Positions 1,707 to 61,937 of a stretch of DNA of 64,000 nucleotides are shown here, one piece after another. The notes below the pieces were generated by a model, which ran no database searches, was not told the origin of the DNA, and was given only the letters and a program-made list of their open reading frames with translations. This DNA is from a virus, in the IMG/VR virus record IMGVR_UViG_3300021963_005223, positions 1 to 64,000 of that record. One strand, written 5' to 3'. Positions within the stretch are counted from its first letter, which is position 1; the number at the start of each line of letters is the position of its first letter. The position numbers were made by a program, and so were the translations under genes.

Positions 1707-1782
1707 GCCCACATAGCTCAGCTGGTAGAGCAACTGATTAGTAATCAGTAGGTCACGTGTTCGAATCATGTTGTGGGCACCA
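1707..1782 (+). tRNA. tRNA-Thr(AGT)
   Basis: Acceptor GCCCACA/TGTGGGC, discriminator A, encoded CCA. The anticodon loop TTAGTAA on a perfect ACTGA/TCAGT stem gives AGU. G1-C72, C2-G71 and G35-U36 match Thr identity, so the charging assignment is sound. A34 is unusual: bacteria normally use GGU for ACC/ACU and keep A34 for Arg-ACG. The next gene starts 12 bases after the CCA. Confidence 0.9.
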
Positions 1783-1794
1783 AAAAATAATGAT

Positions 1795-3159
1795 ATGACA
1801 AAAAATATCGGAACATGTTTAAGTAGAAGTGACAGAGTTGCCATAATTGATCTAACCAAATCTCAAGAAAGTAAAATTACTCATAAACAGTTAGATGATT
1901 ATTCTAATGCTGTTTGTAATAAACTGCTTGAGATTGGAATCAATAAAGGTGATTCTGTAGCACTACATTCAAATAATAATACACAAGCAATCATTTACAT
2001 GTATGGTATAATGAAAGCTGGTGCTGTTTGTTTGTTGATGAATCCAAATTTTAAAGATAAACAATATATTTTAGATATCACTAAACCCAAGTTAATTGTA
2101 AATCAGAGCGATAATTATCTTGGTGAATTAAATGATTTTAGTGATAATTCTGTTGAAGTTAATGAAACTGATTTAGCATTCTGTATGTTTACTTCTGGTT
2201 CAACAGGAAAACCTAAAGCTGTTTTACATACTCATAAAAACAGATATTGGATTATTGAGAAGCATAAAGTCAAACACGATAAGCCAAGAAAATTTTTAGT
2301 TGCAACATCGATGCATTATGCAAGTGCTTTATCAAACATACATCAACAGATAAACTCAGAAAATACTTTGGTTTTGTTTGATAAAGTAGATCCTATTAAA
2401 ATTATATCTTCCATAGAGAAATATCAAATTACAGATATCTCTGCTCCTGCTGCAGTTATGAACATGTTATTGAAGCATGAAAATATGTTCGAGCGTGTAA
2501 ATTTATCATCTGTTAAATTCGTTACTCTCGGTTCTTCTATCGTTAGAGAAGCAACTATTAAAAAACTCAAATCAATTTTCCGAAATGCTTATGTAAAAAT
2601 CTATTATGGAACTTCTGAGTTAGGTCCAAATCTTTTTGCAGAACATCCGTCTTTACCAACTCCAGATATGAGTGTAGGATATGCTGCTGATGGTATAGAG
2701 TATAGAATTGTTGATGGTGTTTTGCAAATTAAAACACCATCGTTGTTTTATGGATATGTGAACAGTAACAAAAATTTAACTGAAGATGGGTTTTACAATA
2801 CAAACGATTATTTCACTGTAGATAAAAATGGTTTTTATTACTGTCACGGTAGAGCAGATGATTGCTTTAAATCTGGTGGTAACATGATCAATCCATATGA
2901 AATTGAAGCATTACTAGAACAGTTTCCAAATGTAATCACTGCAGTTGTAGTTCCAAAAGAAGATGATATTAAATTGTTTAAACCAGTTTGTTATGTCTCA
3001 ACCAAAGGTAAAATATCTATCGAGAATCTAAAACAATTTGCGCTAGATAAATTAGAAGCATATAAAGTTCCACGAGAATTTTATCTTTCTGAAATTCCAT
3101 TGACCAACAATGGAAAAATTGATAGAACTAAACTTAAGGAAATGACTAATGCGAAATAA
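1795..3159 (+). CDS. Acyl-CoA synthetase-like ANL ligase
   Basis: A 454-residue member of the adenylate-forming (ANL) superfamily. These enzymes activate a carboxylic acid with ATP to an acyl-adenylate and usually pass it to CoA or a carrier. The expected motifs are all present in order: the TSGSTGKPK phosphate loop (133-141), YGTSE (271-275), an NTND version of the aspartate motif (335-338), the hinge GRADDCFKSGG (352-362) and the catalytic lysine in NGKIDR (K441). It looks complete and active. An upstream in-frame ATG at 1768 lies inside tRNA-Thr, so the ATG just after the tRNA is chosen, although its ribosome site is weak. It overlaps the BKACE gene by 11 bases, implying coupled translation. 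The substrate cannot be read from sequence. An acyl-CoA ligase is very unusual in a phage. Confidence 0.88.
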   Translation: MTKNIGTCLSRSDRVAIIDLTKSQESKITHKQLDDYSNAVCNKLLEIGINKGDSVALHSNNNTQAIIYMYGIMKAGAVCLLMNPNFKDKQYILDITKPKLIVNQSDNYLGELNDFSDNSVEVNETDLAFCMFTSGSTGKPKAVLHTHKNRYWIIEKHKVKHDKPRKFLVATSMHYASALSNIHQQINSENTLVLFDKVDPIKIISSIEKYQITDISAPAAVMNMLLKHENMFERVNLSSVKFVTLGSSIVREATIKKLKSIFRNAYVKIYYGTSELGPNLFAEHPSLPTPDMSVGYAADGIEYRIVDGVLQIKTPSLFYGYVNSNKNLTEDGFYNTNDYFTVDKNGFYYCHGRADDCFKSGGNMINPYEIEALLEQFPNVITAVVVPKEDDIKLFKPVCYVSTKGKISIENLKQFALDKLEAYKVPREFYLSEIPLTNNGKIDRTKLKEMTNAK

Positions 3160-4027
3160 TAAAACAGTTTTAACTTGTGCAGTCACAGGTGCTGTAACTT
3201 CAAGAGAACAAACTCCACATCTACCTGTCACTCCAGAAGAAATCGCTACATCTGCACTAGAAGCAGCTGAAGCTGGCGCAGCTGTTGTTCATATTCATGT
3301 TAGAGATGTAATTACTGGTAGACCTAGCATGGAATTGGATCACTATCGTGATGTTGTTGATAGAATTAAGAAACAAAACAACGATGTTCTTATTAATTTG
3401 ACTACTGGTCCAGGTGGATTCTTTATTCCCGATTTACAAAGAATTGAAATTGCTGGTAAAGGTACTACTGTGTTTTCTGCAGAAAAACGTGTCAAACATA
3501 TTCAAATGATTAAACCTGATCTTTGCTCATTAGATTTTAATACAATGAATCAAGCTGGTGATGGTATTCGTCTAAATCATAAGAAGATTGTGAAACAAAT
3601 GCTGCATTTGATTCAAGAAGCAGGAACTAAACCTGAATTGGAGATTTTTGGTTCAGGCGATTTTATGCTGGCAAGAGAATATGTTAAAGAGGGATTGGTT
3701 AAAGGTAATCCTCTATGGCAATTTGCGTTAGGTGTTAAGTATGGATTTGAATGCACACACGAAGCAGTCAACTACTGTCAATCGATGTTGCCAGAAAATA
3801 GTTTATGGTCTGCGTTTGGTATCGGTAGAGAAGAAATGCCGATCGTAGCCAATACTTGGTTGTTGGGTGGTCATGTCCGTGTTGGATTGGAAGACAATAT
3901 ATATCTAGAGAAGGGTGTTTTAGCAAAAACCAATGCAGAGTTGGTCACTAAAGCAGTTAGAATAATCAAGGATCTTGGTGGTGAAATTGCCACTTATGAT
4001 GAAGCAAGAAAAATTTATTTGAGTTAA
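3149..4027 (+). CDS. Beta-keto acid cleavage enzyme (BKACE, DUF849 family)
   Basis: A 292-residue TIM-barrel enzyme of the BKACE/Kce family. Known members use acetyl-CoA to split a beta-keto acid into acetoacetate and a new CoA ester (3-keto-5-aminohexanoate and dehydrocarnitine are known substrates). The zinc-site motif HIH (48-50) and the GGHVRVGLEDN block (240-250), which carries the metal-ligand glutamate in Kce, are intact. The length is close to that of cellular enzymes. Placed between an acyl ligase and an SDR, it suggests a short path for a beta-hydroxy or beta-keto acid. The TAA is followed by tRNA-Trp one base later. The true substrate is unknown. Confidence 0.88.
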   Translation: MRNNKTVLTCAVTGAVTSREQTPHLPVTPEEIATSALEAAEAGAAVVHIHVRDVITGRPSMELDHYRDVVDRIKKQNNDVLINLTTGPGGFFIPDLQRIEIAGKGTTVFSAEKRVKHIQMIKPDLCSLDFNTMNQAGDGIRLNHKKIVKQMLHLIQEAGTKPELEIFGSGDFMLAREYVKEGLVKGNPLWQFALGVKYGFECTHEAVNYCQSMLPENSLWSAFGIGREEMPIVANTWLLGGHVRVGLEDNIYLEKGVLAKTNAELVTKAVRIIKDLGGEIATYDEARKIYLS

Positions 4028-4028
4028 T

Positions 4029-4102
4029 ATCTCGATGGTGTAATGGCAGCATAAGGATCTCCAAAATCCTTGGTTGGGGTTCGAGTCCCTATCGGGATGC
4101 CA
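4029..4102 (+). tRNA. tRNA-Trp(CCA)
   Basis: Acceptor ATCTCGA/TCGGGAT, discriminator G (Trp identity), encoded CCA. The anticodon loop CTCCAAA on AGGAT/ATCCT gives CCA. It begins one base after the BKACE stop codon, so it must be cut from the same transcript. Confidence 0.93.
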
Positions 4103-4104
4103 AT

Positions 4105-4178
4105 GCGGGGTTAGTTTAATGGTAAAACTACAGATTTCCAATCTGTTGTTGAGAGTTCGATTCTCTCACTCCGCTCCA
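4105..4178 (+). tRNA. tRNA-Gly(TCC)
   Basis: Acceptor GCGGGGT/ACTCCGC, discriminator T, encoded CCA. The anticodon loop TTTCCAA gives UCC. Last tRNA of the array. Confidence 0.94.
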
Positions 4179-4194
4179 TATTAAAGGAAGTAAA

Positions 4195-4935
4195 ATGGAA
4201 AATAAAGTTGTAGTTATAACAGGTGGTGCTGGTCAAGTTGGTTCAGCTACAGCAAAACGATTAGCCAGTAAAGGGTGTAGAATCGTTTTGATTGTTCGCA
4301 GCAAACCAGAACTAGCACAAAAACTATGTGATGAATTACCCAATTCAAATCTAGAACATTTCTATATTCAAGCATCAGTGACTAACAATGAAGAGATGCG
4401 CATAGCAGCTGCTCAAGTCAGGAATAAAGCTGGTAGATGCGATCTATTGGTCAATGCAGCTGGTGTTTCATATGGTAAATCAAATGATTCTCCTCTATCA
4501 ACAACTGAAGATACGTTACAAAAAACATTTGATGTAAATGTTAAAGGTATACTCAATACAGTTAATAATTTTTATCCTATGCTGAGAGAACGTACTGGTG
4601 TCGTTATCAATCTTTCCTCAATGGCTGGTTTTAAATCTAGATCAAATAGTTTAGCTTATTCTGCTTGTAAATCAGCAGTAAATATTATGACAGAATGCTA
4701 TGCTAAATCATTGGGACCAGTTAGATTTCTAGCTATTGCTCCTTCTACACTAGAAAACCCAACGAGTGGCAGGCAAAGAATGCCACCAAATATTGTAAAC
4801 ACATATAAAGAATCGATACCATTAAAAAGAATTCCTAATGGTAATGATGTAGCAGAAGTTATTGACAGTATTTTTAATGACATGAAATTTTTAAACGGCA
4901 ACATCATAAAATTAGACGGAGGGTTTAATTTGTGA
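4195..4935 (+). CDS. Short-chain dehydrogenase/reductase (FabG-like)
   Basis: A 246-residue classical SDR. The nucleotide-binding TGGAGQVG (9-16), NAAG (87-90), the catalytic serine region NLSS (139-142) and YSACK (155-159) are all present. Family members interconvert hydroxyl and keto groups with NAD(P)H. The ribosome site AAGGAAG precedes the ATG. It follows tRNA-Gly by 16 bases and probably belongs with the ligase and BKACE: an SDR could supply the beta-keto acid that a BKACE cleaves. The substrate and cofactor preference are not evident. The nucleotide motif has Q where G is common. Confidence 0.9.
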   Translation: MENKVVVITGGAGQVGSATAKRLASKGCRIVLIVRSKPELAQKLCDELPNSNLEHFYIQASVTNNEEMRIAAAQVRNKAGRCDLLVNAAGVSYGKSNDSPLSTTEDTLQKTFDVNVKGILNTVNNFYPMLRERTGVVINLSSMAGFKSRSNSLAYSACKSAVNIMTECYAKSLGPVRFLAIAPSTLENPTSGRQRMPPNIVNTYKESIPLKRIPNGNDVAEVIDSIFNDMKFLNGNIIKLDGGFNL

Positions 4936-4960: not shown

Positions 4961-5443
4961 ATGGGTGTAATCAACATTAATGAAGTTAAAGATTTTATCG
5001 AGTCACAGAGTCCTGAGACCAAAGTTTATATCGGTGGTGATTCTGAGCGATTTTTGATTGGAAAAGATTGGTACGCAGATTATACTTTAGTTATTGTTAT
5101 TCATATTAATGGTGACAATGGCTGTAAGATTTTTGGTGAAGTTCAACGTGAACGTGACTGGGATCAGAAACGTGATAGACCACGTATGCGATTAATGAAT
5201 GAGGTTTATAAAATCGCAGAACTATATAATAAATTACATGATGTTTTAGAGGATAGAGAAGTGCAGGTTCATTTGGACATTAACCCAGATGAAATGTATG
5301 GTTCATCGTGTGTAATAAATGAAGCTGTTGGTTATATCAAAGGTATGTGTAATGTTATTCCTATGGTTAAACCAAAAGCATTTGCTGCATCATACGCTGC
5401 AGACAGATATAAAAGTATCGCACCGAATAAAAGGGTTGCTTAA
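4961..5443 (+). CDS. YkuK-like (DUF458) RNase H-fold protein
   Basis: A 160-residue protein starting with a predicted strand and GGDS (25-28), then acidic positions HLDIN and NEAVGY typical of the YkuK/DUF458 group, which is predicted to have an RNase H-like fold. The biochemical role is not established. The stop overlaps the next ATG (TAATG). Confidence 0.7.
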   Translation: MGVININEVKDFIESQSPETKVYIGGDSERFLIGKDWYADYTLVIVIHINGDNGCKIFGEVQRERDWDQKRDRPRMRLMNEVYKIAELYNKLHDVLEDREVQVHLDINPDEMYGSSCVINEAVGYIKGMCNVIPMVKPKAFAASYAADRYKSIAPNKRVA

Positions 5444-6180
5444 TGATAAAATATAATGTTGATGTATATGATGATATTGTACCAGAAGACTTACGATGGT
5501 CTGTTTGGGAATACATTCAAAATCAAACATTCCACGGAACGAGGAAGGATATCTCTTATCCAAACCCTGGATCTGCTATCTACTACAAACCTATCGAAAA
5601 CAAAAAAGAATATCTTGATGATACAGTTCCATCAGTGAACAATCAATATATTTATCGTTGTGTGTTTGGCAATTCAGATAATGAAGTTGAGTTTCGTCAC
5701 CCAATTATTTGGAAACTCTGGAAAACTATTAACAAGCATTTGGATAACAGATTCTCTATTTCTGGCGATGAGGAAGGAATAGCAGATAAATCACTTAAAT
5801 ACCCATTCTCTCGTTGTTATGTGAATGCGCAACCAGAAGAAACCATTAAAAGATCTCATGGTGTTCATCGTGATACCATCGACATGAATGAGACCAAAAA
5901 CTTCACGTTACTTTATATTGCAAACCTACAGTGGTATCCTACTTGGATGGCAGAGAATGTATTTTTCTCTGATGATGAAACTACCAGTGATACCCAACAA
6001 TTTCAAAAAGGTTTGGGACAATCTCGTGGTTTCCCAGTTGGAGAACCATTTAAAATTGTAACACCAATGGCAGGTAGAGTTATTCTTTATGATGGTAGAA
6101 CGCTACATACAACAAAACCTTGCGCACCATGGGCAGAACACATGCGGTATGCTGTTGTCTTTAGGATTAGAGAAAAATAA
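5443..6180 (+). CDS. 2-oxoglutarate/Fe(II)-dependent oxygenase
   Basis: A 245-residue double-stranded beta-helix enzyme. The iron ligands HRD (H142, D144) and a distal histidine in TLHTTKP (H222) fit the HxD...H triad, and an arginine near the end (R235 or R241) could bind 2-oxoglutarate. Prolyl-4-hydroxylase-like oxygenases are common in T4-like phages, with unknown targets. It overlaps its neighbours on both sides by one base (TAATG), so translation is coupled. Confidence 0.8.
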   Translation: MIKYNVDVYDDIVPEDLRWSVWEYIQNQTFHGTRKDISYPNPGSAIYYKPIENKKEYLDDTVPSVNNQYIYRCVFGNSDNEVEFRHPIIWKLWKTINKHLDNRFSISGDEEGIADKSLKYPFSRCYVNAQPEETIKRSHGVHRDTIDMNETKNFTLLYIANLQWYPTWMAENVFFSDDETTSDTQQFQKGLGQSRGFPVGEPFKIVTPMAGRVILYDGRTLHTTKPCAPWAEHMRYAVVFRIREK

Positions 6181-7604
6181 TGTTTTTTGATGATTATAAT
6201 GAATTTGTCAATGATGATCCCAGAAAGGGAAGAGCAGCTGTTCCAGTTACAGTTGAATCTTTAAGTAAACGATCAGCTGTTCTATTGCCAAAATGGTTAA
6301 TCAAAGATAAAACCATTTTAGATCTTGGACACTGTGTTGGTGCATTTGGTCATTGGGCACTATCCAATGGTGCCAAACATTATACTGGCATCGATATACA
6401 CGAAGAATTTTGTGACACTTCTACCAAACTATTATCAAAGTATTGGTCTGATGATAAATTTGAAATTCATACTGCAGAGATTAATAACTTTTTATTAAAT
6501 TCTAAAAACAAATACGACATCGTCTTAGCTGCTGGAATCATCCATGGTTATTTCGATGTCGTTTCATTACTGCGAAACATATCCAATGGTTGCTCTGATG
6601 TGATTGTAATAGAAACTATAGACATCGATGACTCAATCATACCTCAAATTCAATTTCGATATCACAATATGGCAAGCCCAGATGTCAATCAACCATATAC
6701 AGGTTGGACATCTGCGATCGGATTAAATGCATTGAATCATGTAATGCACGAATTTGACTTTGCTCAGTTTGGTGAAAGAGTATATCCAGAAAAGATAATT
6801 AACTCTCATGACTCATATAATCAAATCTTTATAAACGAAAAGCGTAGACCGATGGACGGAATGCCCAATAGGTTTATGATTAGGTATAAGAGAAATAAAA
6901 CAGTTAAGCATTCACTTGAAAATAATATAAAGAATGGAATAACAAACGAAAAAGCTACTTTAGTTCAACCTAAAGCTGTAGAACAAAAGATTTGGGAGTT
7001 TGATGAAGGAGTTGCTTCTAGATTTCAACAAGAAGCACTGACAAATATTCCAGATTACGAGCGTGTCGTTGACTTATGTTTACAGATAGTAAATGAGAAA
7101 TTTAAAAAGGGTGCAACAGTAGTTGACGTTGGTAGTGCACTGGGATATACTTTAGATAAATTTGCCAATGCTGGATATAATGTAATTGGTATTGAATCCA
7201 GCGAACAAATGAAATCTAAATCAAAACATCATGACAAAGTTGTCATCTCCTCATCATTTCCAGAATTATCTTGTGATGTAGTCCTAGCTAATTGGACGCT
7301 ACACTTTGTCAATGAGAGAAAAGAGTATATACAAAATATATACAACAATTTGAATCGATCAGGAGTTTTAATTCTGACTGATAAAACAACACAGTCAGAA
7401 ACAATTAAAAAATTATACTATGACTTCAAGCGTTCCAATGGTATTACTGAAGAATATATAAAAATGAAAGAAGAAATGCTCAAAGGATATATGAGCACTT
7501 TACCTGCTCAATGGTATATTGAAACTTTGCAGGAAGTTGGATTTATTAATATTCAAATAATAAATAGCAGACTTGGGTTTGTATCATTTTATTGCGAAAA
7601 ATAA
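6180..7604 (+). CDS. Double SAM methyltransferase with CmoA-like C-terminal half
   Basis: A 474-residue protein with two Rossmann methyltransferase domains. The N-terminal one has ILDLGHCVGAFG (46-57) and YTGID (68-72). The C-terminal half, from about residue 270, follows CmoA nearly end to end: WEFDEGVA, the SAM loop VVDVGSALGY (314-323), the NWTLHFV segment, IYNNL and the hallmark DFKRSNG (415-421). CmoA makes carboxy-SAM from SAM and prephenate; CmoB then uses it to build cmo5U at position 34 of tRNAs. The N-terminal domain could be the CmoB counterpart, but this is a guess. Phage tRNAs for Leu, Pro, Thr and Ala in this window have U34. Confidence 0.75.
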   Translation: MFFDDYNEFVNDDPRKGRAAVPVTVESLSKRSAVLLPKWLIKDKTILDLGHCVGAFGHWALSNGAKHYTGIDIHEEFCDTSTKLLSKYWSDDKFEIHTAEINNFLLNSKNKYDIVLAAGIIHGYFDVVSLLRNISNGCSDVIVIETIDIDDSIIPQIQFRYHNMASPDVNQPYTGWTSAIGLNALNHVMHEFDFAQFGERVYPEKIINSHDSYNQIFINEKRRPMDGMPNRFMIRYKRNKTVKHSLENNIKNGITNEKATLVQPKAVEQKIWEFDEGVASRFQQEALTNIPDYERVVDLCLQIVNEKFKKGATVVDVGSALGYTLDKFANAGYNVIGIESSEQMKSKSKHHDKVVISSSFPELSCDVVLANWTLHFVNERKEYIQNIYNNLNRSGVLILTDKTTQSETIKKLYYDFKRSNGITEEYIKMKEEMLKGYMSTLPAQWYIETLQEVGFINIQIINSRLGFVSFYCEK

Positions 7605-7612
7605 AGGAAAAT

Positions 7613-7807
7613 ATGTTAACATTCAAGGAACAATGGGAAGCAAAAAAAGCATTGAAAAAGGCTAAGAAAAAAGCACGCAACAATGCAATAGAACAACATG
7701 GTATGGATAAAAAGACTGCCACTCGTGCTGTGAAAGATGCAGTTAAACGCATGACATCAGCACCGAAACAACAACCAATCACCAAAGCAGCTGGACGTGG
7801 TGGGTAA
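7613..7807 (+). CDS. Small Lys/Ala-rich basic protein (64 aa)
   Basis: The ATG preceded by AAAGGAAA is preferred over an upstream in-frame ATG inside the methyltransferase gene. A highly charged helical segment rich in Lys and Ala is followed by a Gly/Pro-containing tail. It may bind nucleic acid, but there is no diagnostic motif. It lies between the methyltransferase and the first binding-protein gene. Confidence 0.65.
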   Translation: MLTFKEQWEAKKALKKAKKKARNNAIEQHGMDKKTATRAVKDAVKRMTSAPKQQPITKAAGRGG

Positions 7808-7832: not shown

Positions 7833-8747
7833 ATGAAAAAATTATTAGCAATTATTGCATGTGCACTTAGTATGAATGTCATGGCACGTGAGAACATTAC
7901 CATATATTATGGTTGGACAGCAAGCGATTCATTGGCAAATTACAGTCGTGCTCTGGCAATGGAAGCAAACAAAATTCAAAATAAGTATACGTTTCTATTT
8001 GATACCAAACCAGGAGCAGGTGGTGCACTTGCAGCACAGCATGTTCTAAGAGAACCAAACTCTATCGCTGCGCATTCAACTGCTTTCTTTATTAGACCTA
8101 TAGTATATCCAAATGAAAGTTACGATATTAGTCAGTTTTCTCCCTTGTGGAATCATTGCACCTCACCTATCTCTATTGCGTCATCTAAGTACAAATCTTG
8201 GAACGAAGTACCTAAGGATAAACCTTTGACTATTGGTGTATCTGGTTTAGGTGCCACGACGCACTTGGTGGCTATTACACTCCAAGAGAAATATACAAAC
8301 TTAACAATAGTTCCATTTAAATCATCGAACGATTCTATGCTCGCAATGGTTTCTGGTCAAATCGATATGCATTCTGGATTCATTAGCCAATCTGAACAGT
8401 GGACGAAAGATAATATTAATAGCGATCGTCGTGTGAATATTCTTGGAATTACTGGCAATAAACAAGTCAATACATATAAACCTCTAACAAGTCAAGGGTT
8501 CCAACCAGTATTTGGTCAAATGAATGCCAGCCAGATTTTAATAGTTGCAACAAGTAAATTTGATGAAGCCAAAAGAAAAGAGTTACATCAAATTTTTACC
8601 GAAGCAGCAAAATCAAAATCTGTTCTTGATTCGTATGCAGTTGATTACTGTGAGCCAATGAAAACAACTTATGAAGATATGCCTAAGTTTTTTAGTAATG
8701 GTATAGATTACTGGAAAAAGTTGGCAATAAAAGTTAAACTGGATTAA
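7833..8747 (+). CDS. Exported Bug/TctC-like solute-binding protein 1
   Basis: A 304-residue protein with a clear signal peptide (KK, hydrophobic core, cut after VMA near residue 18), so it goes to the periplasm. The KPGAGG motif near residue 50, the GxGATTH-type segment in the middle and the overall length match the tripartite tricarboxylate receptor (TctC/Bug) family, which binds carboxylates and is hugely expanded in Betaproteobacteria. The ribosome site is TTGGAGA. A second divergent copy lies just downstream. No membrane partner gene is visible, so it may feed a host transporter or act in another way. Confidence 0.85.
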   Translation: MKKLLAIIACALSMNVMARENITIYYGWTASDSLANYSRALAMEANKIQNKYTFLFDTKPGAGGALAAQHVLREPNSIAAHSTAFFIRPIVYPNESYDISQFSPLWNHCTSPISIASSKYKSWNEVPKDKPLTIGVSGLGATTHLVAITLQEKYTNLTIVPFKSSNDSMLAMVSGQIDMHSGFISQSEQWTKDNINSDRRVNILGITGNKQVNTYKPLTSQGFQPVFGQMNASQILIVATSKFDEAKRKELHQIFTEAAKSKSVLDSYAVDYCEPMKTTYEDMPKFFSNGIDYWKKLAIKVKLD

Positions 8748-8765
8748 ACCAAATAATATTGCAAT

Positions 8766-8794
8766 TTTACATTAATGTGATTTTCAAGTATAAT
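8766..8794 (+). promoter_or_regulatory. sigma70-type promoter
   Basis: TTTACA, 17 bases, TATAAT in the gap after the first binding-protein gene. It should drive the 79-residue gene and the second binding-protein gene. Confidence 0.75.
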
Positions 8795-8813
8795 TTAATT
8801 AAGTGAGAAATAA

Positions 8814-9053
8814 ATGTTGTGGTTTAAAACTGGTGGCGATGATCCGAAAAAAGACGACCTGCGTGTAATACGCAGGTTTGCTTGGATACCTACACGTATA
8901 AAAGGTAATTGGTTGTGGTGGAAACATTACCAAGTATTGCAAGAATATAAAACTGTAACGATTATCACACCTGAAATACCAAGTGGTCAAACAGCATTGA
9001 TGTGGTTAGATCTTGATACATATAATATAGAGGAAAAAGTTGAAATTAGCTAG
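8814..9053 (+). CDS. Hypothetical protein (79 aa)
   Basis: First gene after a strong promoter, with start at 20 bases from the TATAAT. Rich in Trp and charged residues, no signal or membrane segment. Its end overlaps the start of the second Bug/TctC gene by 14 bases. Not recognised. Confidence 0.6.
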   Translation: MLWFKTGGDDPKKDDLRVIRRFAWIPTRIKGNWLWWKHYQVLQEYKTVTIITPEIPSGQTALMWLDLDTYNIEEKVEIS

Positions 9054-9921
9054 TTTATTATTTGGTGCATTATTCAGTTTAAATGTATATGCACAAGAGA
9101 CAGTGAGAATCTACTCACCATACAGTCCAACGCATTCTGGTACGCCAGCAATGTTCAAGATTATTGATGAAGCCAATAAGTCTCAGAACATCTACAAATT
9201 TATCCTTGAATTCAAACCTGGAGGTAATCAGATTATTGCACTGAAATCCATGGATGAAAACAGTCTGGCCATTATGGCACCTGCATACGTTGAGAACGTA
9301 AACAAGGGTTTGATTAAGGAAGAAGATTACATTCCTATCCATACTATCGGTGACGCATGCTGGACTGTTATTACCAATGGACCAGTCAAAAGTATTAAGG
9401 AACTCACTGTCGGTGGTGTAGGGTTCGGAAACTCTGCTCACCTAACTGGACTAGCCATGGGTGAGAAGTTTGGTTTCCCAGTTCGCTATATCGTCTTTAA
9501 ATCCAATAATGATGCACTGGTCAATATGGCAGGAAATAATGGTATAAACATGGTCATCGATCGTTGGGAAGCATATGAGTCCATGAAGACCAAAAATCCA
9601 AATCTACAAGCATACGCAGCATCCTGTCCTGTTCGTCTACCACAAGATCCCAAGTTAAAGACACTGGGAGAAAATGGAATCAAAGCACCATACGTATTCA
9701 ATATCACAGTGGCACCAAAGTCCATGACTACAGCCAAGCGTAAGGTTATTGCAATCATTCTGAACGATGCTCAGAACAAGATTGGAGCGGATGAAATCTT
9801 CAGAGTATCAGGTATGAGAATACCAAAGGAATCAGCTGAGGAATTCTATGGTAAGTCAATCAATACAGTACGCAGTCTACAGACCAAGTATCGTAAAGAA
9901 ATCGAGGAAGCAAGCAAATGA
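9040..9921 (+). CDS. Exported Bug/TctC-like solute-binding protein 2
   Basis: A 293-residue protein read from a TTG codon with AGAGGAAA in front. Signal peptide with cleavage after VYA (near residue 18). It aligns in plan with binding protein 1: KPGG near 50, GVGFGNSAHL in the middle, an FKSNND segment and a helical C-terminus. It is divergent from copy 1, so this is an old duplication or separate gains. The gene is visibly less AT-rich than its neighbours. Its ATGA end overlaps the next gene. The ligand is probably a carboxylate. Confidence 0.82.
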   Translation: MKLASLLFGALFSLNVYAQETVRIYSPYSPTHSGTPAMFKIIDEANKSQNIYKFILEFKPGGNQIIALKSMDENSLAIMAPAYVENVNKGLIKEEDYIPIHTIGDACWTVITNGPVKSIKELTVGGVGFGNSAHLTGLAMGEKFGFPVRYIVFKSNNDALVNMAGNNGINMVIDRWEAYESMKTKNPNLQAYAASCPVRLPQDPKLKTLGENGIKAPYVFNITVAPKSMTTAKRKVIAIILNDAQNKIGADEIFRVSGMRIPKESAEEFYGKSINTVRSLQTKYRKEIEEASK

Positions 9922-16325: not shown

Positions 16326-16583
16326 ATGAACATTAAAACCGAAAACGAAAATCTGTTTCCCACTGGAGGAATGACTATTCCCTATGAGGTAGCACATGGC
16401 GTCACTCTTGCAAGTTTGATTGATTCTCGAACTTACTTGCAAAGTGAATTGGATCAGTGGCATGCTAATCCTAAAGATGAGCTGAACCCAGATGGGTATT
16501 GGTTACATCCTGAGGATGTTGTTAATAATATGAAATATATTCGTGCAATGGATTTGTTAATAAAATATTTTGGTGGTGAATAA
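16326..16583 (+). CDS. Hypothetical protein (85 aa), probably leaderless
   Basis: Its ATG is exactly six bases after TATAAT, with no room for a ribosome binding site. Soluble, helical, with a GYWLHPEDV segment. TAATG coupling to the phosphoesterase gene downstream. Not recognised. Confidence 0.55.
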   Translation: MNIKTENENLFPTGGMTIPYEVAHGVTLASLIDSRTYLQSELDQWHANPKDELNPDGYWLHPEDVVNNMKYIRAMDLLIKYFGGE

Positions 16584-17503
16584 TGAAAATCGCAATTTGC
16601 TCAGATGTCCATTTAGAGTTTGGGCAGTTAAATTTGGAAAACACAGAAAATGCTGAGGTACTTGTTTTATCTGGTGATATTTGTACTGCTGTTGATCTTC
16701 GTGTCACCGATAGCATTCTTTCTTCTGCTAAAACTGATCGCTATCTTGAGTTTTTTACTGCTTGCAGTCGGAACTTCCCTCATGTTGTTTATATTATGGG
16801 GAATCACGAGCATTATCATGGTGACTATGCTACTTCTGCAAGTTATCTGAGAGATGCCATGAAACAATGTGGTGATAACATTCACTTTCTTGACAAAGAA
16901 GTCTGGGAACATAAAGACCACGTGTTTATCGGTGGCACTTTGTGGACTGATATGAATGGTGAAGATGAGATGACTATGAATCATGTGTCTCGTCGCATGA
17001 ATGACTTTCAAATATGTAAGAATAGTCTACGTGAGGTTACTTTCAAGACATTTGTACCTAAAGAAAAACCAGAAGGTATGAGTGATGAAGACTTTAATCT
17101 TCTTCCATACGAACAGCGTTACAAGAATGTGTTTAAAACTCGTGAAGCAACTTTGTCTCCACATGATGTAGTGCAAGACCACAAAGCCATGTTGAAGTTT
17201 ATTGAAGACACATACAATAATACTCCTTTATCGAAGACTGTTGTTGTTTGTACGCATCATGCACCAAGCAAAGGTTCTGAGCATCCTCGCTATAAACACG
17301 ATTCACTGATGAATGGTGCATACAACTCACAGTTGGATAAGTTTATCATGGATCGTCCAGGAATCAAATTGTGGACTCATGGTCATACTCATGAAGACTT
17401 TGACTACATGATTAAGCATTGTCGTGTTGTTTGTAATCCACGTGGTTATATTGACTACGAAGAACGTGCAGATCGTTTTCAACTTAAATTTGTGGAGGTT
17501 TAG
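16583..17503 (+). CDS. Calcineurin-like metallophosphoesterase
   Basis: A 306-residue protein with all the family's metal motifs in order: SDVHLE (7-12), SGDIC (32-36), GNHEHY (73-78), THHAPS and GHTHED near the end. Such enzymes cleave phosphoesters of nucleotides, nucleic acids or lipids; the substrate cannot be predicted. Translationally coupled to the upstream gene. Confidence 0.85.
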   Translation: MKIAICSDVHLEFGQLNLENTENAEVLVLSGDICTAVDLRVTDSILSSAKTDRYLEFFTACSRNFPHVVYIMGNHEHYHGDYATSASYLRDAMKQCGDNIHFLDKEVWEHKDHVFIGGTLWTDMNGEDEMTMNHVSRRMNDFQICKNSLREVTFKTFVPKEKPEGMSDEDFNLLPYEQRYKNVFKTREATLSPHDVVQDHKAMLKFIEDTYNNTPLSKTVVVCTHHAPSKGSEHPRYKHDSLMNGAYNSQLDKFIMDRPGIKLWTHGHTHEDFDYMIKHCRVVCNPRGYIDYEERADRFQLKFVEV

Positions 17504-24278: not shown

Positions 24279-24429
24279 GTTATTAAATGCTGAAATCGCA
24301 CCTAATATAATTATATTAGAAGAACGTAAACTTCCTGAAGGTTGGAAAGAAGGAGATATGTTTAAAGTTATTATTGGTGCGAATGGACAAGTTACACTAA
24401 TCAAGTCAACGCAAGATGGTGTAATGTAA
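24277..24429 (+). CDS. Small AbrB-like peptide (50 aa), doubtful
   Basis: An open frame whose ATG overlaps the TATAAT, so it could not be translated in full from that promoter. An internal ATG at 24358 has AGGAG only two bases away. The segment LPEGWKEGDMF with a following strand resembles the AbrB-like protein at 17833. It may be a real small gene read from upstream or part of the tmRNA leader. Confidence 0.4.
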   Translation: MLLNAEIAPNIIILEERKLPEGWKEGDMFKVIIGANGQVTLIKSTQDGVM

Positions 24430-24492
24430 GAATTGCTGTATGAAGCAATGAGAAAGGTGTTCTGGACGTGGGTTCGACTCCCACCACCTCCA
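24430..24492 (+). ncRNA. ssrA: Permuted tmRNA, acceptor piece
   Basis: The T arm GTGGG-TTCGACT-CCCAC (24468-24484) is followed by CACCTCC and discriminator A. CACCTCC pairs over 7 bp with GGGGGTG at 24553-24559, which lies downstream, so the tRNA-like domain is made of two pieces in swapped order. The conserved GGACG-GGGTTCGACTCCC signature fits tmRNA. CCA is only half encoded (CC, then T), so CCA must be completed after processing. The exact 5' end is uncertain. Confidence 0.85.
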
Positions 24493-24552
24493 CCTGAACA
24501 TATTCCGAACCGAGTTATCGGTAGCAAAGCGAAACGCTGAGTATGTTCAGGT
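24493..24552 (+). other. tmRNA intervening segment, removed in maturation
   Basis: Loop between the two tmRNA pieces, closed by CACCTGAACATA (24491-24502) with TATGTTCAGGTG (24542-24553), a perfect 12-bp inverted repeat. In permuted tmRNAs this segment is cut out to leave a two-piece RNA. Confidence 0.75.
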
Positions 24553-24810
24553 GGGGGTGCCATGGTTTCGACAGGGCAATGAGTAACAGAGTGGACAGCA
24601 CGACACAGAGAGTCGTAAAAAGTAAAAAACGTAAACGCAAACGACGCACAGTTCGCATTAGCAGCCTAAACACTGCTTAGGGTTTCGGTAGGTTTCCTCG
24701 TAACAGAATAACCTACCACGAATTAGTGAAGTCTTTGCTCATAATTGGCAACCGATATCCTTGATATCTTGTACCAAGAAAAGTGACGACATTAATGTGC
24801 AGTAAATCAT
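24553..24810 (+). ncRNA. ssrA: Permuted tmRNA, coding piece (tag ANDAQFALAA)
   Basis: Begins with the acceptor strand GGGGGTG and the tRNA-like block ATGGTTTCGACAGGG, as in tmRNA 5' ends. The tag frame runs 24637-24669 and encodes ANDAQFALAA then TAA, with the resume codon GCA in the usual GCAAACGAC setting. The LAA ending is the degradation signal read by ClpXP. Downstream inverted repeats can form pseudoknots. tmRNA rescues stalled ribosomes and tags the unfinished protein. The 3' boundary is approximate. Confidence 0.88.
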
Positions 24811-27311: not shown

Positions 27312-27662
27312 ATGATTCTTATTCACACTGGTCTTGGTCGATCCAAGAAACGTAAGCCAAATGCAAAGCAACGTGAGTTGCAAGCATCATGGGAAGCCAT
27401 GATAAAGAAGTATGCCACAAAGAAGGTTGCTCCAAGAAAAGAGCAATCACTCAGTGACGTATACTCACTCGGTACACCTGCTTGTCGTGAGACACCTAAG
27501 ATTCCGAGTCTTCCATTTACTGCTGGTCCATGCACCAAAGCACCTGACAAGGTGTATACTGGTACTGCGATCAAAGGTATTGGTACTATGCATAAGTCAA
27601 ATGCTGTTCCTATCTTTTCAGATCAGGAAGCGATTGACATTGCTAAAATGAGGAGAGGTTGA
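27312..27662 (+). CDS. Conserved phage protein (116 aa), probably leaderless
   Basis: The ATG is six bases after TATAAT. The C-terminal part with YTGTAIKGIGTMHKSNAVPIF and ending EAIDIAKMRRG resembles a protein I recall from many T4-like and other phages. Basic N-terminus. Function unknown. Confidence 0.7.
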   Translation: MILIHTGLGRSKKRKPNAKQRELQASWEAMIKKYATKKVAPRKEQSLSDVYSLGTPACRETPKIPSLPFTAGPCTKAPDKVYTGTAIKGIGTMHKSNAVPIFSDQEAIDIAKMRRG

Positions 27663-59870: not shown

Positions 59871-60818
59871 ATGAATGCAAAACATGTTAAATGGGTCATT
59901 GCACATGAACCTATCGGCTTGTTTCTTAAAGTAGCGGATCGTTTCGCTACAGAAGTAAACGAGAAGACTGGTGGAATGTTCAATATTGAAGTTTTATCAT
60001 TGTCAGATTATTCTGCAAAATATAACGATGGCAAAAAGATCACTAAAAATGAGTTAATGACTTTAGTTGATTCTGGTGCTATTGAAATGAGCCACATCTA
60101 TACTACTTGGTTAGCTGATTATAATAAAGATCTACATGCTTTAGATCTACCTTTCTTATTCCGTGACCACGATCACGCTGATGCAGTTCTAGAAGGTGAA
60201 ATTGGTACTGAGTTGTTAGCTGGTGTATCTAAGAATTCTAATATTCACGCTATGTCTTTCACTTACTCTGGTGGTTATCGTGTTGTTCCAGCTAACTTCC
60301 GTGCTGATACTGTAGAAGCATGGAGAGGTCAAGCTGTTCGCACTTCACGTTCTCCAGTAGCTGTTGAGACATTTAAGTTACTAGGTGCTGAGCCAAAAGA
60401 GCACATCGCTCTAGAAGAAATGAATGAATATGCAGATAAAGGTGAAATTGCTGCTGGTGAATCAACTTACGTTCGCATTTTCCCACTAGATCAGTATAAA
60501 TCTTTTAAAGTTGTTAATGACACTGCTCATAGCTTGTTCTTAACTTCTATTATTGTTAACAAAGACTTTATGGCTCAGTTTGACGAAGAAACTCGAGAGA
60601 TTCTAGCTACTGCTGCATTTAATGCTGCTCGTGTAGAGCGTCGTGAATCTGTAGCTGACATTCCTAACATCTTGGCTGAATGTCAAGAAAAAGGTGTTGA
60701 AGTTGTTCGTATGTCTACTGAAGAACAGAAGAAGTTCCAAGAAGTTACTTCTGCTGTTTATGAAAAGTTTGCAGACTATTTCACTCCAGGATTAGTGCAG
60801 AAAATTAAGTTACAATAA
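59871..60818 (+). CDS. DctP-like TRAP solute-binding protein without signal peptide
   Basis: A 315-residue protein with the TRAP receptor pattern: KVADRFATEVNEKTGGMF, LDLPFLFRDHDHADAVL, GGYRVVPANFR and the conserved WRGQAVRTSRSPVAVETFKLLGAEP with its carboxylate-clamping arginine. Cellular versions carry a signal peptide; here the start (MNAKHVKWVIAHEP, after GGAGAAA) has none. It would stay in the cytoplasm or be built into the virion. No TRAP membrane genes are nearby. The gene uses host-like codons more than its neighbours. Confidence 0.85.
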   Translation: MNAKHVKWVIAHEPIGLFLKVADRFATEVNEKTGGMFNIEVLSLSDYSAKYNDGKKITKNELMTLVDSGAIEMSHIYTTWLADYNKDLHALDLPFLFRDHDHADAVLEGEIGTELLAGVSKNSNIHAMSFTYSGGYRVVPANFRADTVEAWRGQAVRTSRSPVAVETFKLLGAEPKEHIALEEMNEYADKGEIAAGESTYVRIFPLDQYKSFKVVNDTAHSLFLTSIIVNKDFMAQFDEETREILATAAFNAARVERRESVADIPNILAECQEKGVEVVRMSTEEQKKFQEVTSAVYEKFADYFTPGLVQKIKLQ

Positions 60819-60884: not shown

Positions 60885-61937
60885 ATGACTATGAATAAAG
60901 AATGTTTATATTATAATTGCTATAATGTTCCAGAAGTAATACAAGCTGGAGATAAAAGTATTGAACCTTATCTATCACCAGATTATTCAGATAAAGTTTT
61001 CCAGTTTTATAGAAAATATAAAATGGATTTGACTAATGTAGTATGTGATAGAATGGATATCCTTCCACATTATATTAACATAAAAAAGAATCAATTTCCA
61101 CTACCAAAAATTGAGCCAGATTTTAATATGTCTTTTGCTGAGTGCGTTGAAAAACGAGCAAAAGAAATTTTGGCACTCAATAAACCAATAACGGTAGTTT
61201 GGAGCGGTGGTATTGATAGTACACTTGTAATATTTTCACTGCTTCAATTTTGCAATGACCCATCACAAATTACTGTTTATGGAACTTATAACTCTATTGT
61301 AGAGTCTGGTGATGTATTTGAAAAATATATCCTGCCAAGGGGTGTCAAATATCAGTTTGCAGTATCATCTAGAAAATACTTTAAAGATGATACACAAATC
61401 TATATCTCTGGTTTTATGGGTAATCAATTATTTGGACCAGTTGATGATTTTTCATATTCAAAAGCTACATTGTTTCATCACCATCTTAGAGGTAATGGTG
61501 ATATTGAAGATTCTTACGAAACTGTGTTGACTGAAGAGATGCACGAGTTTTTATTACCTGCACTTAAAGCCAGTCCAAAGAAAATAGAAACTGTTAGAGA
61601 TTTACGCTGGTTTGGTATTTTTATGTTAGATTGGCACCAGTCATATTATGATATTTTAATCAAAACAAAAAATTATGATAAAGTTTATCATTTTTTTGAT
61701 GATGCTGATATGCAAAAATATTCTATGACAACAAAAGAGCCATACACAAAAGTAAAGGGAAACCCTCTGACCCATCGCTGGGTCATGAGGGAATTAATTG
61801 AAGAGTGGGGGAAGTGCTCTCACTATGCTTGGAACAAACCAAAGAGTATATCAAACTTGGCCAATAGAGCTGCTGACTGGTATTTTATAATGCCAGATCA
61901 TAGTTTGATTACTCCAAACAATATTAAATTTAATTAG
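60885..61937 (+). CDS. Asparagine-synthetase-like PP-loop enzyme
   Basis: A 350-residue ATP-pyrophosphatase with SGGIDST (107-113). The plan resembles the synthetase half of class B asparagine synthetase without the glutaminase domain. Related enzymes form amide bonds, including macrolactam-forming enzymes of lasso peptides. ATG at 60885 or 60891. It sits three genes after the radical SAM enzyme, so it could be part of the same peptide-modifying locus. Substrate unknown. Confidence 0.7.
   Translation: MTMNKECLYYNCYNVPEVIQAGDKSIEPYLSPDYSDKVFQFYRKYKMDLTNVVCDRMDILPHYINIKKNQFPLPKIEPDFNMSFAECVEKRAKEILALNKPITVVWSGGIDSTLVIFSLLQFCNDPSQITVYGTYNSIVESGDVFEKYILPRGVKYQFAVSSRKYFKDDTQIYISGFMGNQLFGPVDDFSYSKATLFHHHLRGNGDIEDSYETVLTEEMHEFLLPALKASPKKIETVRDLRWFGIFMLDWHQSYYDILIKTKNYDKVYHFFDDADMQKYSMTTKEPYTKVKGNPLTHRWVMRELIEEWGKCSHYAWNKPKSISNLANRAADWYFIMPDHSLITPNNIKFN

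Follow-up and report, generated by a model that had tools for sequence, protein, structure and literature searches.

Phage-encoded TctC/Bug-type binding proteins and their possible part in organic acid uptake

The 64,000-nucleotide stretch analyzed here (the window) is part of an 81,272-base virus record and carries two genes, SBP A and SBP B, whose products are predicted to be TTT-type (TctC/Bug; PF03401) binding proteins (SBPs). We favor, with moderate confidence, the interpretation that both are phage-made periplasmic TTT SBPs that make the infected cell, probably a betaproteobacterium, import particular organic acids. That these genes belong to a real phage genome is shown by the T4-like baseplate, tail and SSB genes of the same record. 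Also on the record are 13 tRNA genes and a tmRNA, assigned by Rfam to the betaproteobacterial type, which makes a betaproteobacterial host likely. TctA is present in freshwater Burkholderiaceae, e.g., Polynucleobacter. Table 1 lists the features discussed.

Table 1. Positions of the features in the window and the basis of each assignment
Feature	Position	Strand	Basis
AMP-forming acyl-CoA ligase	1768..3159	+	Pfam AMP-binding, 159.9 bits
BKACE (beta-keto acid cleavage enzyme)	3149..4027	+	Pfam PF05853, 318.8 bits
Short-chain dehydrogenase/reductase (SDR)	4195..4935	+	Pfam adh_short, 134 bits
2OG-Fe(II) oxygenase-like protein, recurs in SBP clusters	5443..6180	+	Homologues in L217, L220, L222, L223, L225
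Small conserved ORF, likely start ATG 7613	7592..7807	+	Synteny in relatives
SBP A, exported TctC/Bug-fold protein, 304 aa, ATG start	7833..8747	+	Pfam TctC, 41.2 bits (cut-off 27)
Putative phage promoter TTTACA-N17-TATAAT, before small ORF and SBP B	8766..8794	+	Exact repeat
Small ORF between SBP A and SBP B, 79 aa, 14-base overlap with SBP B start	8814..9053	+	Sequence
SBP B, exported TctC/Bug-fold protein, 293 aa, TTG start	9040..9921	+	Pfam TctC, 26.9 bits
Phage tmRNA, betaproteobacterial type, tag ANDAQFALAA	24383..24741 or 24383-24760	+	Rfam RF01850, 133.2 bits
DctP-family protein (TRAP SBP fold family, PF03480)	59871..60818	+	Pfam DctP, 138 bits
PP-loop (SGGIDST) ATPase-like protein, recurs beside DctP	60885..61937	+	Sequence; L218, L224, L225

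Family, export and ligand pocket of SBP A and SBP B

The sequence-only reading of this DNA had proposed two exported Bug/TctC-type binding proteins on a phage, and the open reading frames, Pfam matches, signal peptides and predicted folds agree with that proposal. The SBP B score is 0.1 bit below the Pfam cut-off, and several of its relatives score above it. Sec signals cover approximately residues 1-18 of SBP A (7833-7886) and of SBP B (9040-9093). They are clear in both proteins, as had been claimed, and a home-made heuristic (not SignalP) detected a Sec-signal-like N-terminus in all 41 B-type and all 18 A-type viral relatives. From these signals we infer a periplasmic location. AF2 models made from viral alignments only reached pLDDT values of 92.2 (SBP A) and 91.9 (SBP B). 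The best 17 Foldseek rows for each model were all TTT SBP chains, comprising BugD, BugE (2dvz), Bug27, TphC, the Ideonella terephthalate binder, AdpC, MatC and Polaromonas TctC. In VIA-align comparisons with Bug27 (2qpq), SBP A gave a Z of 32.4 (rmsd 2.3 over 277 residues) and SBP B a Z of 24.1 (rmsd 2.9 over 270 residues). The Z values against TTT SBPs were 27-32 and 22-24, respectively, and those of the best non-TTT families were 17.1 and 15.6. The models thus place both proteins in the TTT SBP family.

SBP A and SBP B share fold, size and predicted Sec export with the known TTT SBPs (TctC, BugD, Bug27, TphC, AdpC, MatC), as well as the conserved HL motif and the second pincer loop region. 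Unlike those proteins, they are encoded by a virus, have a conserved Cys pair and are only 14-23% identical to the solved members. TTT SBPs grip one carboxylate between two loops, the first of which has the motif P-F-x-A-G-G-x-x-D (PMC5812351). This signature is almost ubiquitous but not absolute, and some Bug proteins have hydroxyl residues instead (PMC5812351). It is absent from both phage proteins, where loop 1 was found replaced by segments with hydroxyl residues, YYGWTASDS in SBP A (Y-Y-G-W-T-A-S-D) and SPYSPTHS in SBP B (S-P-Y-S-P-T-H-S). The two were therefore filed as a divergent variant rather than as typical TTT SBPs.

Proof that the proteins are general virion proteins with no ligand pocket would have counted against the sequence-only reading. 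The pocket loops are instead their best conserved part. The loops of SBP B (27-33, 79-82, 127-134 and 153-157), picked by homology to TphC and mapped via a HMMER alignment, take up 24 of 275 positions and hold 11 of the 39 invariant residues (p = 8e-5). Of the 38 members in the alignment of the B viral family, 36 have Arg or Lys at the site that matches TphC N197. TphC T155 is a direct carboxylate contact (PMC8556258); its equivalent in SBP A is T142, and 15 of the 18 A-type proteins retain it. The pattern of conservation indicates that the pocket is under constraint, and both proteins are likely to bind an anion. Cys107 and Cys196 of SBP B are invariant (38/38), and Cys109 and Cys273 of SBP A are nearly invariant in the A family. 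These pairs are as would be expected for a periplasmic disulfide.

The earlier claim that one of the two genes has its own promoter holds for SBP B together with the small ORF upstream of it (8814-9053), which has a weak match to PHROG 11031, a PHROG of unknown function. The window has TTTACA-N17-TATAAT seven times as an exact match, always on the + strand (104, 8766, 12704, 14261, 16291, 27008 and 27277), versus 0.05 expected in shuffles. A generic promoter scan found 13 sites versus 10.3 expected, and the site at 8766 is convincing only as an exact repeat. The seven copies are probably a family of early phage promoters. Several of them are extended (TTTACAnTAATTCA...GTATAAT). A homologue of the ORF at 7592-7807 lies directly before the B gene in the relatives L005-L010; in the window, SBP A and the small ORF separate it from SBP B. 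The neighboring ORF 6180-7604 has two methyltransferase domains, which are encoded by two separate ORFs in the relative L008 (7027-7761 and 7748-8365).

Viral relatives and linkage to TctB and TctA

No match to SBP A or SBP B was found in 50,697 phage records, and no PHROG family corresponds to either. A profile search of IMG/VR recovered 57 B-type and 18 A-type loci; the two families are thus not absent from all relatives; such an absence was what the sequence-only reading had named as fatal to its proposal. Most related IMG/VR records have one to three TctC-type genes each. That reading had suggested a search for the pair in relatives; both families recur, but the A-B pair is not a fixed unit, and the genes are adjacent in L004, L056 (with a 4-base overlap), L068 and L070. 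At this locus it is B that is conserved, with A as an accessory gene. B is present in three near-full-length relatives (G006, G013 and G030; 162-171 kb), which have a T4-like capsid protein. The dN/dS values, with synonymous sites partly saturated, were 0.065-0.14 for B pairs and 0.05-0.07 for pairs from the A family, so that both families are under strong purifying selection.

In a phylogeny of 108 TctC proteins, built by a quick method with long branches and limited cellular sampling, three viral groups were resolved: B (42 rows; SH-aLRT 100), A (15 rows; 98) and a third one with 10 rows (99). All three lie apart from cellular TctCs sited beside the nearest cellular TctAs. In the IMG/VR records L013, L041 and L048, TctC-type genes form arrays of three that differ strongly from one another and span about 6 kb, including the third viral group. 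A scan of 84,980 species genomes with the B alignment pattern, which distant cellular relatives could escape, returned 83 stretches and no relative. The plasmid collection had only remote matches for SBP A (20-29% identity; Cupriavidus and Variovorax). Within the searches made here, the A and B families appear to occur only in viruses, and were not found in cells.

The sequence-only reading noted that there is no transporter gene, and this was confirmed for the window and for the whole 81-kb record, a fragment, in which neither TctA nor DctM was found. TctA was also missing from G006, G013 and G030, so B is an orphan there. A complete TctCBA set, absent from the window's phage, was found in other relatives. 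In the contig G026 (L071), which has a phage DNA polymerase, a B-type SBP (1803-2744), TctB (2741-3166) and TctA (3178-4629) are consecutive, with Pfam scores of 27.7, 48.5 and 502 bits, respectively. Besides G026/L117, the linkage was seen in G059 (L118), with the same order and a TctA 91% identical; in L119/L120, with the order TctB-TctA-SBP; and in G044/G057, with the order SBP-B, DctP, 2OG oxygenase, PP-loop, TctB, TctA, on contigs that have T4-like UvsX or capsid genes. The TctAs adjoining B-type SBPs, together with L121, group in a single clade (SH-aLRT 96) that excludes the 80 cellular TctAs closest to them. The linkage and the separate TctA clade indicate that B-type proteins serve, or once served, as the binding component of a virus-encoded TTT transporter. 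In a tree that is unrooted, the orphan B of the window's sublineage looks like a case of TctBA loss or of host TctBA use; in the near-full-length relatives, it probably feeds a host TctBA.

Not all viral TctA records were of this kind. The TctAs in the phage collection were discarded as evidence, since they came only from large Salmonella records or from short, unannotated ones that lack a clear phage setting. Those on L125, L127 and L128 were also set aside as probable host flanks, because they are at a contig edge and group with alphaproteobacterial TctAs. The viral TctAs of L122-L124 group with Comamonadaceae-type TctAs, a separate acquisition. TctB-TctA pairs of L122-L124, L129 and L133 lie near homologues of window genes 27312-27662 and 16583-17503. 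Judged by their grouping, the Comamonadaceae-type pairs are a second, independent viral acquisition of TctBA.

The DctP-family protein and the metabolic genes

DctP proteins are periplasmic by definition. The DctP-family protein of the window begins at its own first strand, with only three in-frame codons upstream, and has no signal peptide. Five phage homologues are likewise leaderless, so that none of the six phage copies examined has the export signal of a TRAP SBP. Leaderless copies are located at L217:7296-8243, L218:12540-13520, L224:7118-8065 and L225:12695-13636 and 5689-6645. Since it has no leader, the protein is probably cytosolic. Of the three carboxylate-binding-type proteins that the sequence-only reading had counted, this one is a real DctP-family member, but only the other two are exported. 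A phage TRAP transporter was ruled out by the lack of DctM in 32 related records. The DctP gene adjoins that of an exported SBP-B in several relatives, and our guess is that its product carries or senses the imported acid in the cytosol.

The ligase-BKACE-SDR cassette described earlier is real, with Pfam matches for all three genes (1768-4935). BKACE converts a beta-keto acid and acetyl-CoA to acetoacetate and an acyl-CoA. As predicted from these genes, the route would convert a hydroxy or keto acid to CoA esters. BKACE was found in 5 of 32 related viral records. The proposal that cassette and SBPs belong together is supported by their clustering in relatives. SDR-BKACE adjoins DctP-SBP-B, within 4 kb, in G019. 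The cluster of G031 has another TctC, BKACE, SDR and ligase, followed by PP-loop, DctP and SBP-B, within 9 kb. In G013 and G030, ligase-SDR-BKACE is 15-20 kb from B. The oxygenase-like and PP-loop (SGGxDS) proteins both reappear in related phages, within their SBP clusters (L217, L218 and L225). One homologue of the oxygenase-like protein scored 26.3 bits with PF13640, just below the cut-off.

Proposed role and alternatives

The events that may take place during infection can be outlined as follows. SBP B would be expressed from the sigma70-like, phage-specific promoter, whose repeats were observed and whose timing is presumed, and both proteins would reach the periplasm by the Sec route. To judge by the fold and the conserved loops, each would hold a small anion between its two domains, with a di- or tricarboxylate as the likeliest ligand. 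The loaded protein may then dock onto TctBA, the phage's own in relatives with the linked genes, and putatively that of the host for this phage and the near-full-length relatives. Betaproteobacteria have many orphan TctCs per TctBA (PMC5812351, PMC5994714), and in its orphan state the phage pair resembles them. Once imported, the acid would enter the CoA-ligase/SDR/BKACE route suggested by the clustered genes, yielding acyl-CoA and acetoacetate as energy and building blocks, which would be the presumed benefit of SBP A and SBP B for the phage. The earlier suggestion that the proteins load a transporter with a substrate is strongly supported by the relatives with B-type SBP, TctB and TctA, and by the neighboring DctP, BKACE, SDR and ligase genes. 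Against the import interpretation stand the replaced loop-1 signature of both proteins, the SBP B score just under the Pfam cut-off and the leaderless DctP neighbor, which simple import does not explain. In addition, all contigs are metagenomic, and because the near-full-length relatives have no TctA, transport in that sublineage depends on a putative host partner.

A broader and more tentative hypothesis, to which we give somewhat less than even credence, is that a T4-like phage lineage owns a pathway for organic acid uptake and breakdown. The virus-specific SBP families (A, B and the third group), diversified inside viruses, would deliver to viral or host TctBA, and a cytosolic DctP-derived binder and the CoA ligase, SDR and BKACE would complete the pathway.

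Other functions were weighed against import. The secreted SBPs could act as decoys or in superinfection exclusion, blocking a host membrane or periplasmic protein (e.g., TctA or a receptor SBP), with transport not being the aim. They are indeed orphan secreted proteins with no membrane partner in the record or the near-full-length relatives, and there are several divergent copies per phage. However, the invariant residues cluster in the ligand-pocket loops, and relatives encode B-type SBPs with intact TctB and TctA, which a pure blocker does not need; we regard this function as unlikely. Slightly less likely still is a role in sensing, in which the SBPs would hand a ligand to a two-component sensor of the host (TctE/BctE type), as Bordetella BctC does, and so switch host uptake or catabolic genes. 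BctC is required for transport and for BctDE signaling (PMC5812351), and orphan SBPs are candidates for sensing (PMC5994714), but the clusters examined have no sensor gene and the linkage is to TctB/TctA and enzymes. Blocking of other phages and changed sensing had both been raised by the sequence-only reading, and neither gained positive evidence here.

It is very improbable that SBP A and SBP B are virion or tail-associated proteins that bind a small molecule or a cell-surface ligand. Nothing positive speaks for this function except the place of the genes on a myovirus genome, and against it are the predicted cleavable Sec signals of all relatives, the lack of a PHROG structural family matching A or B, the location of B 25 kb from the baseplate genes and its operon, in which small early-type ORFs follow one of the repeated promoters. 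That they are passenger genes recently taken from the host, with no selected phage function, is close to refuted: Betaproteobacteria are extremely rich in TctC genes (PMC5812351), but A and B form clades of viral proteins distinct from the cellular TctC rows that were compared, B is at a syntenic locus and has 57 loci, and dN/dS is 0.05-0.14.

Import as the favored function can be compared with known systems. The relatives of B resemble the TctCBA operon (Salmonella citrate; Bordetella BctCBA) in having TctB (PF07331) and TctA (PF01970), in phage contigs. Unlike that operon, the window's phage has neither TctA nor TctB in its 81 kb, and the viral TctA beside B is a clade of its own. Cyanophage PstS, a phage-encoded periplasmic phosphate SBP, is thought to feed the host importer during infection (PMC6359870, PMC3429862). 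It is an orphan phage-encoded SBP like A and B, which differ in belonging to another SBP family, in having a putative secondary transporter rather than an ABC partner, carbon acids instead of phosphate as predicted ligands, and a linked catabolic cassette. A tctA domain hit was reported on SUP05 viral contigs (PMC4164917). Like the viral TctA described here, it concerns a TTT component from a contig that is putatively viral; unlike the viral tctCBA, it is only a domain hit, the contig was assigned to a virus by non-reference methods, and no SBP family or operon was described. Apart from that hit, no phage TctC or TctCBA was found in the literature covered, a search that subscription journals and preprints lay outside. 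Phage SBPs such as cyanophage PstS and cellular TTT SBPs were known, but the literature searched had no description of virus-specific TTT SBP families with a viral TctCBA and a linked CoA cassette.

If the favored interpretation is true, a virus-specific family of organic acid SBPs, together with TctBA and a CoA cassette, would mean that some phages steer the carbon uptake of infected cells. The two SBPs, the viral TctCBA operon and the leaderless DctP form a testable set for asking which substrate a phage would have its host consume. The same set could show if viral SBPs dock on transporters of the host, which is relevant as well to the so far unexplained orphan Bug proteins that Betaproteobacteria carry.
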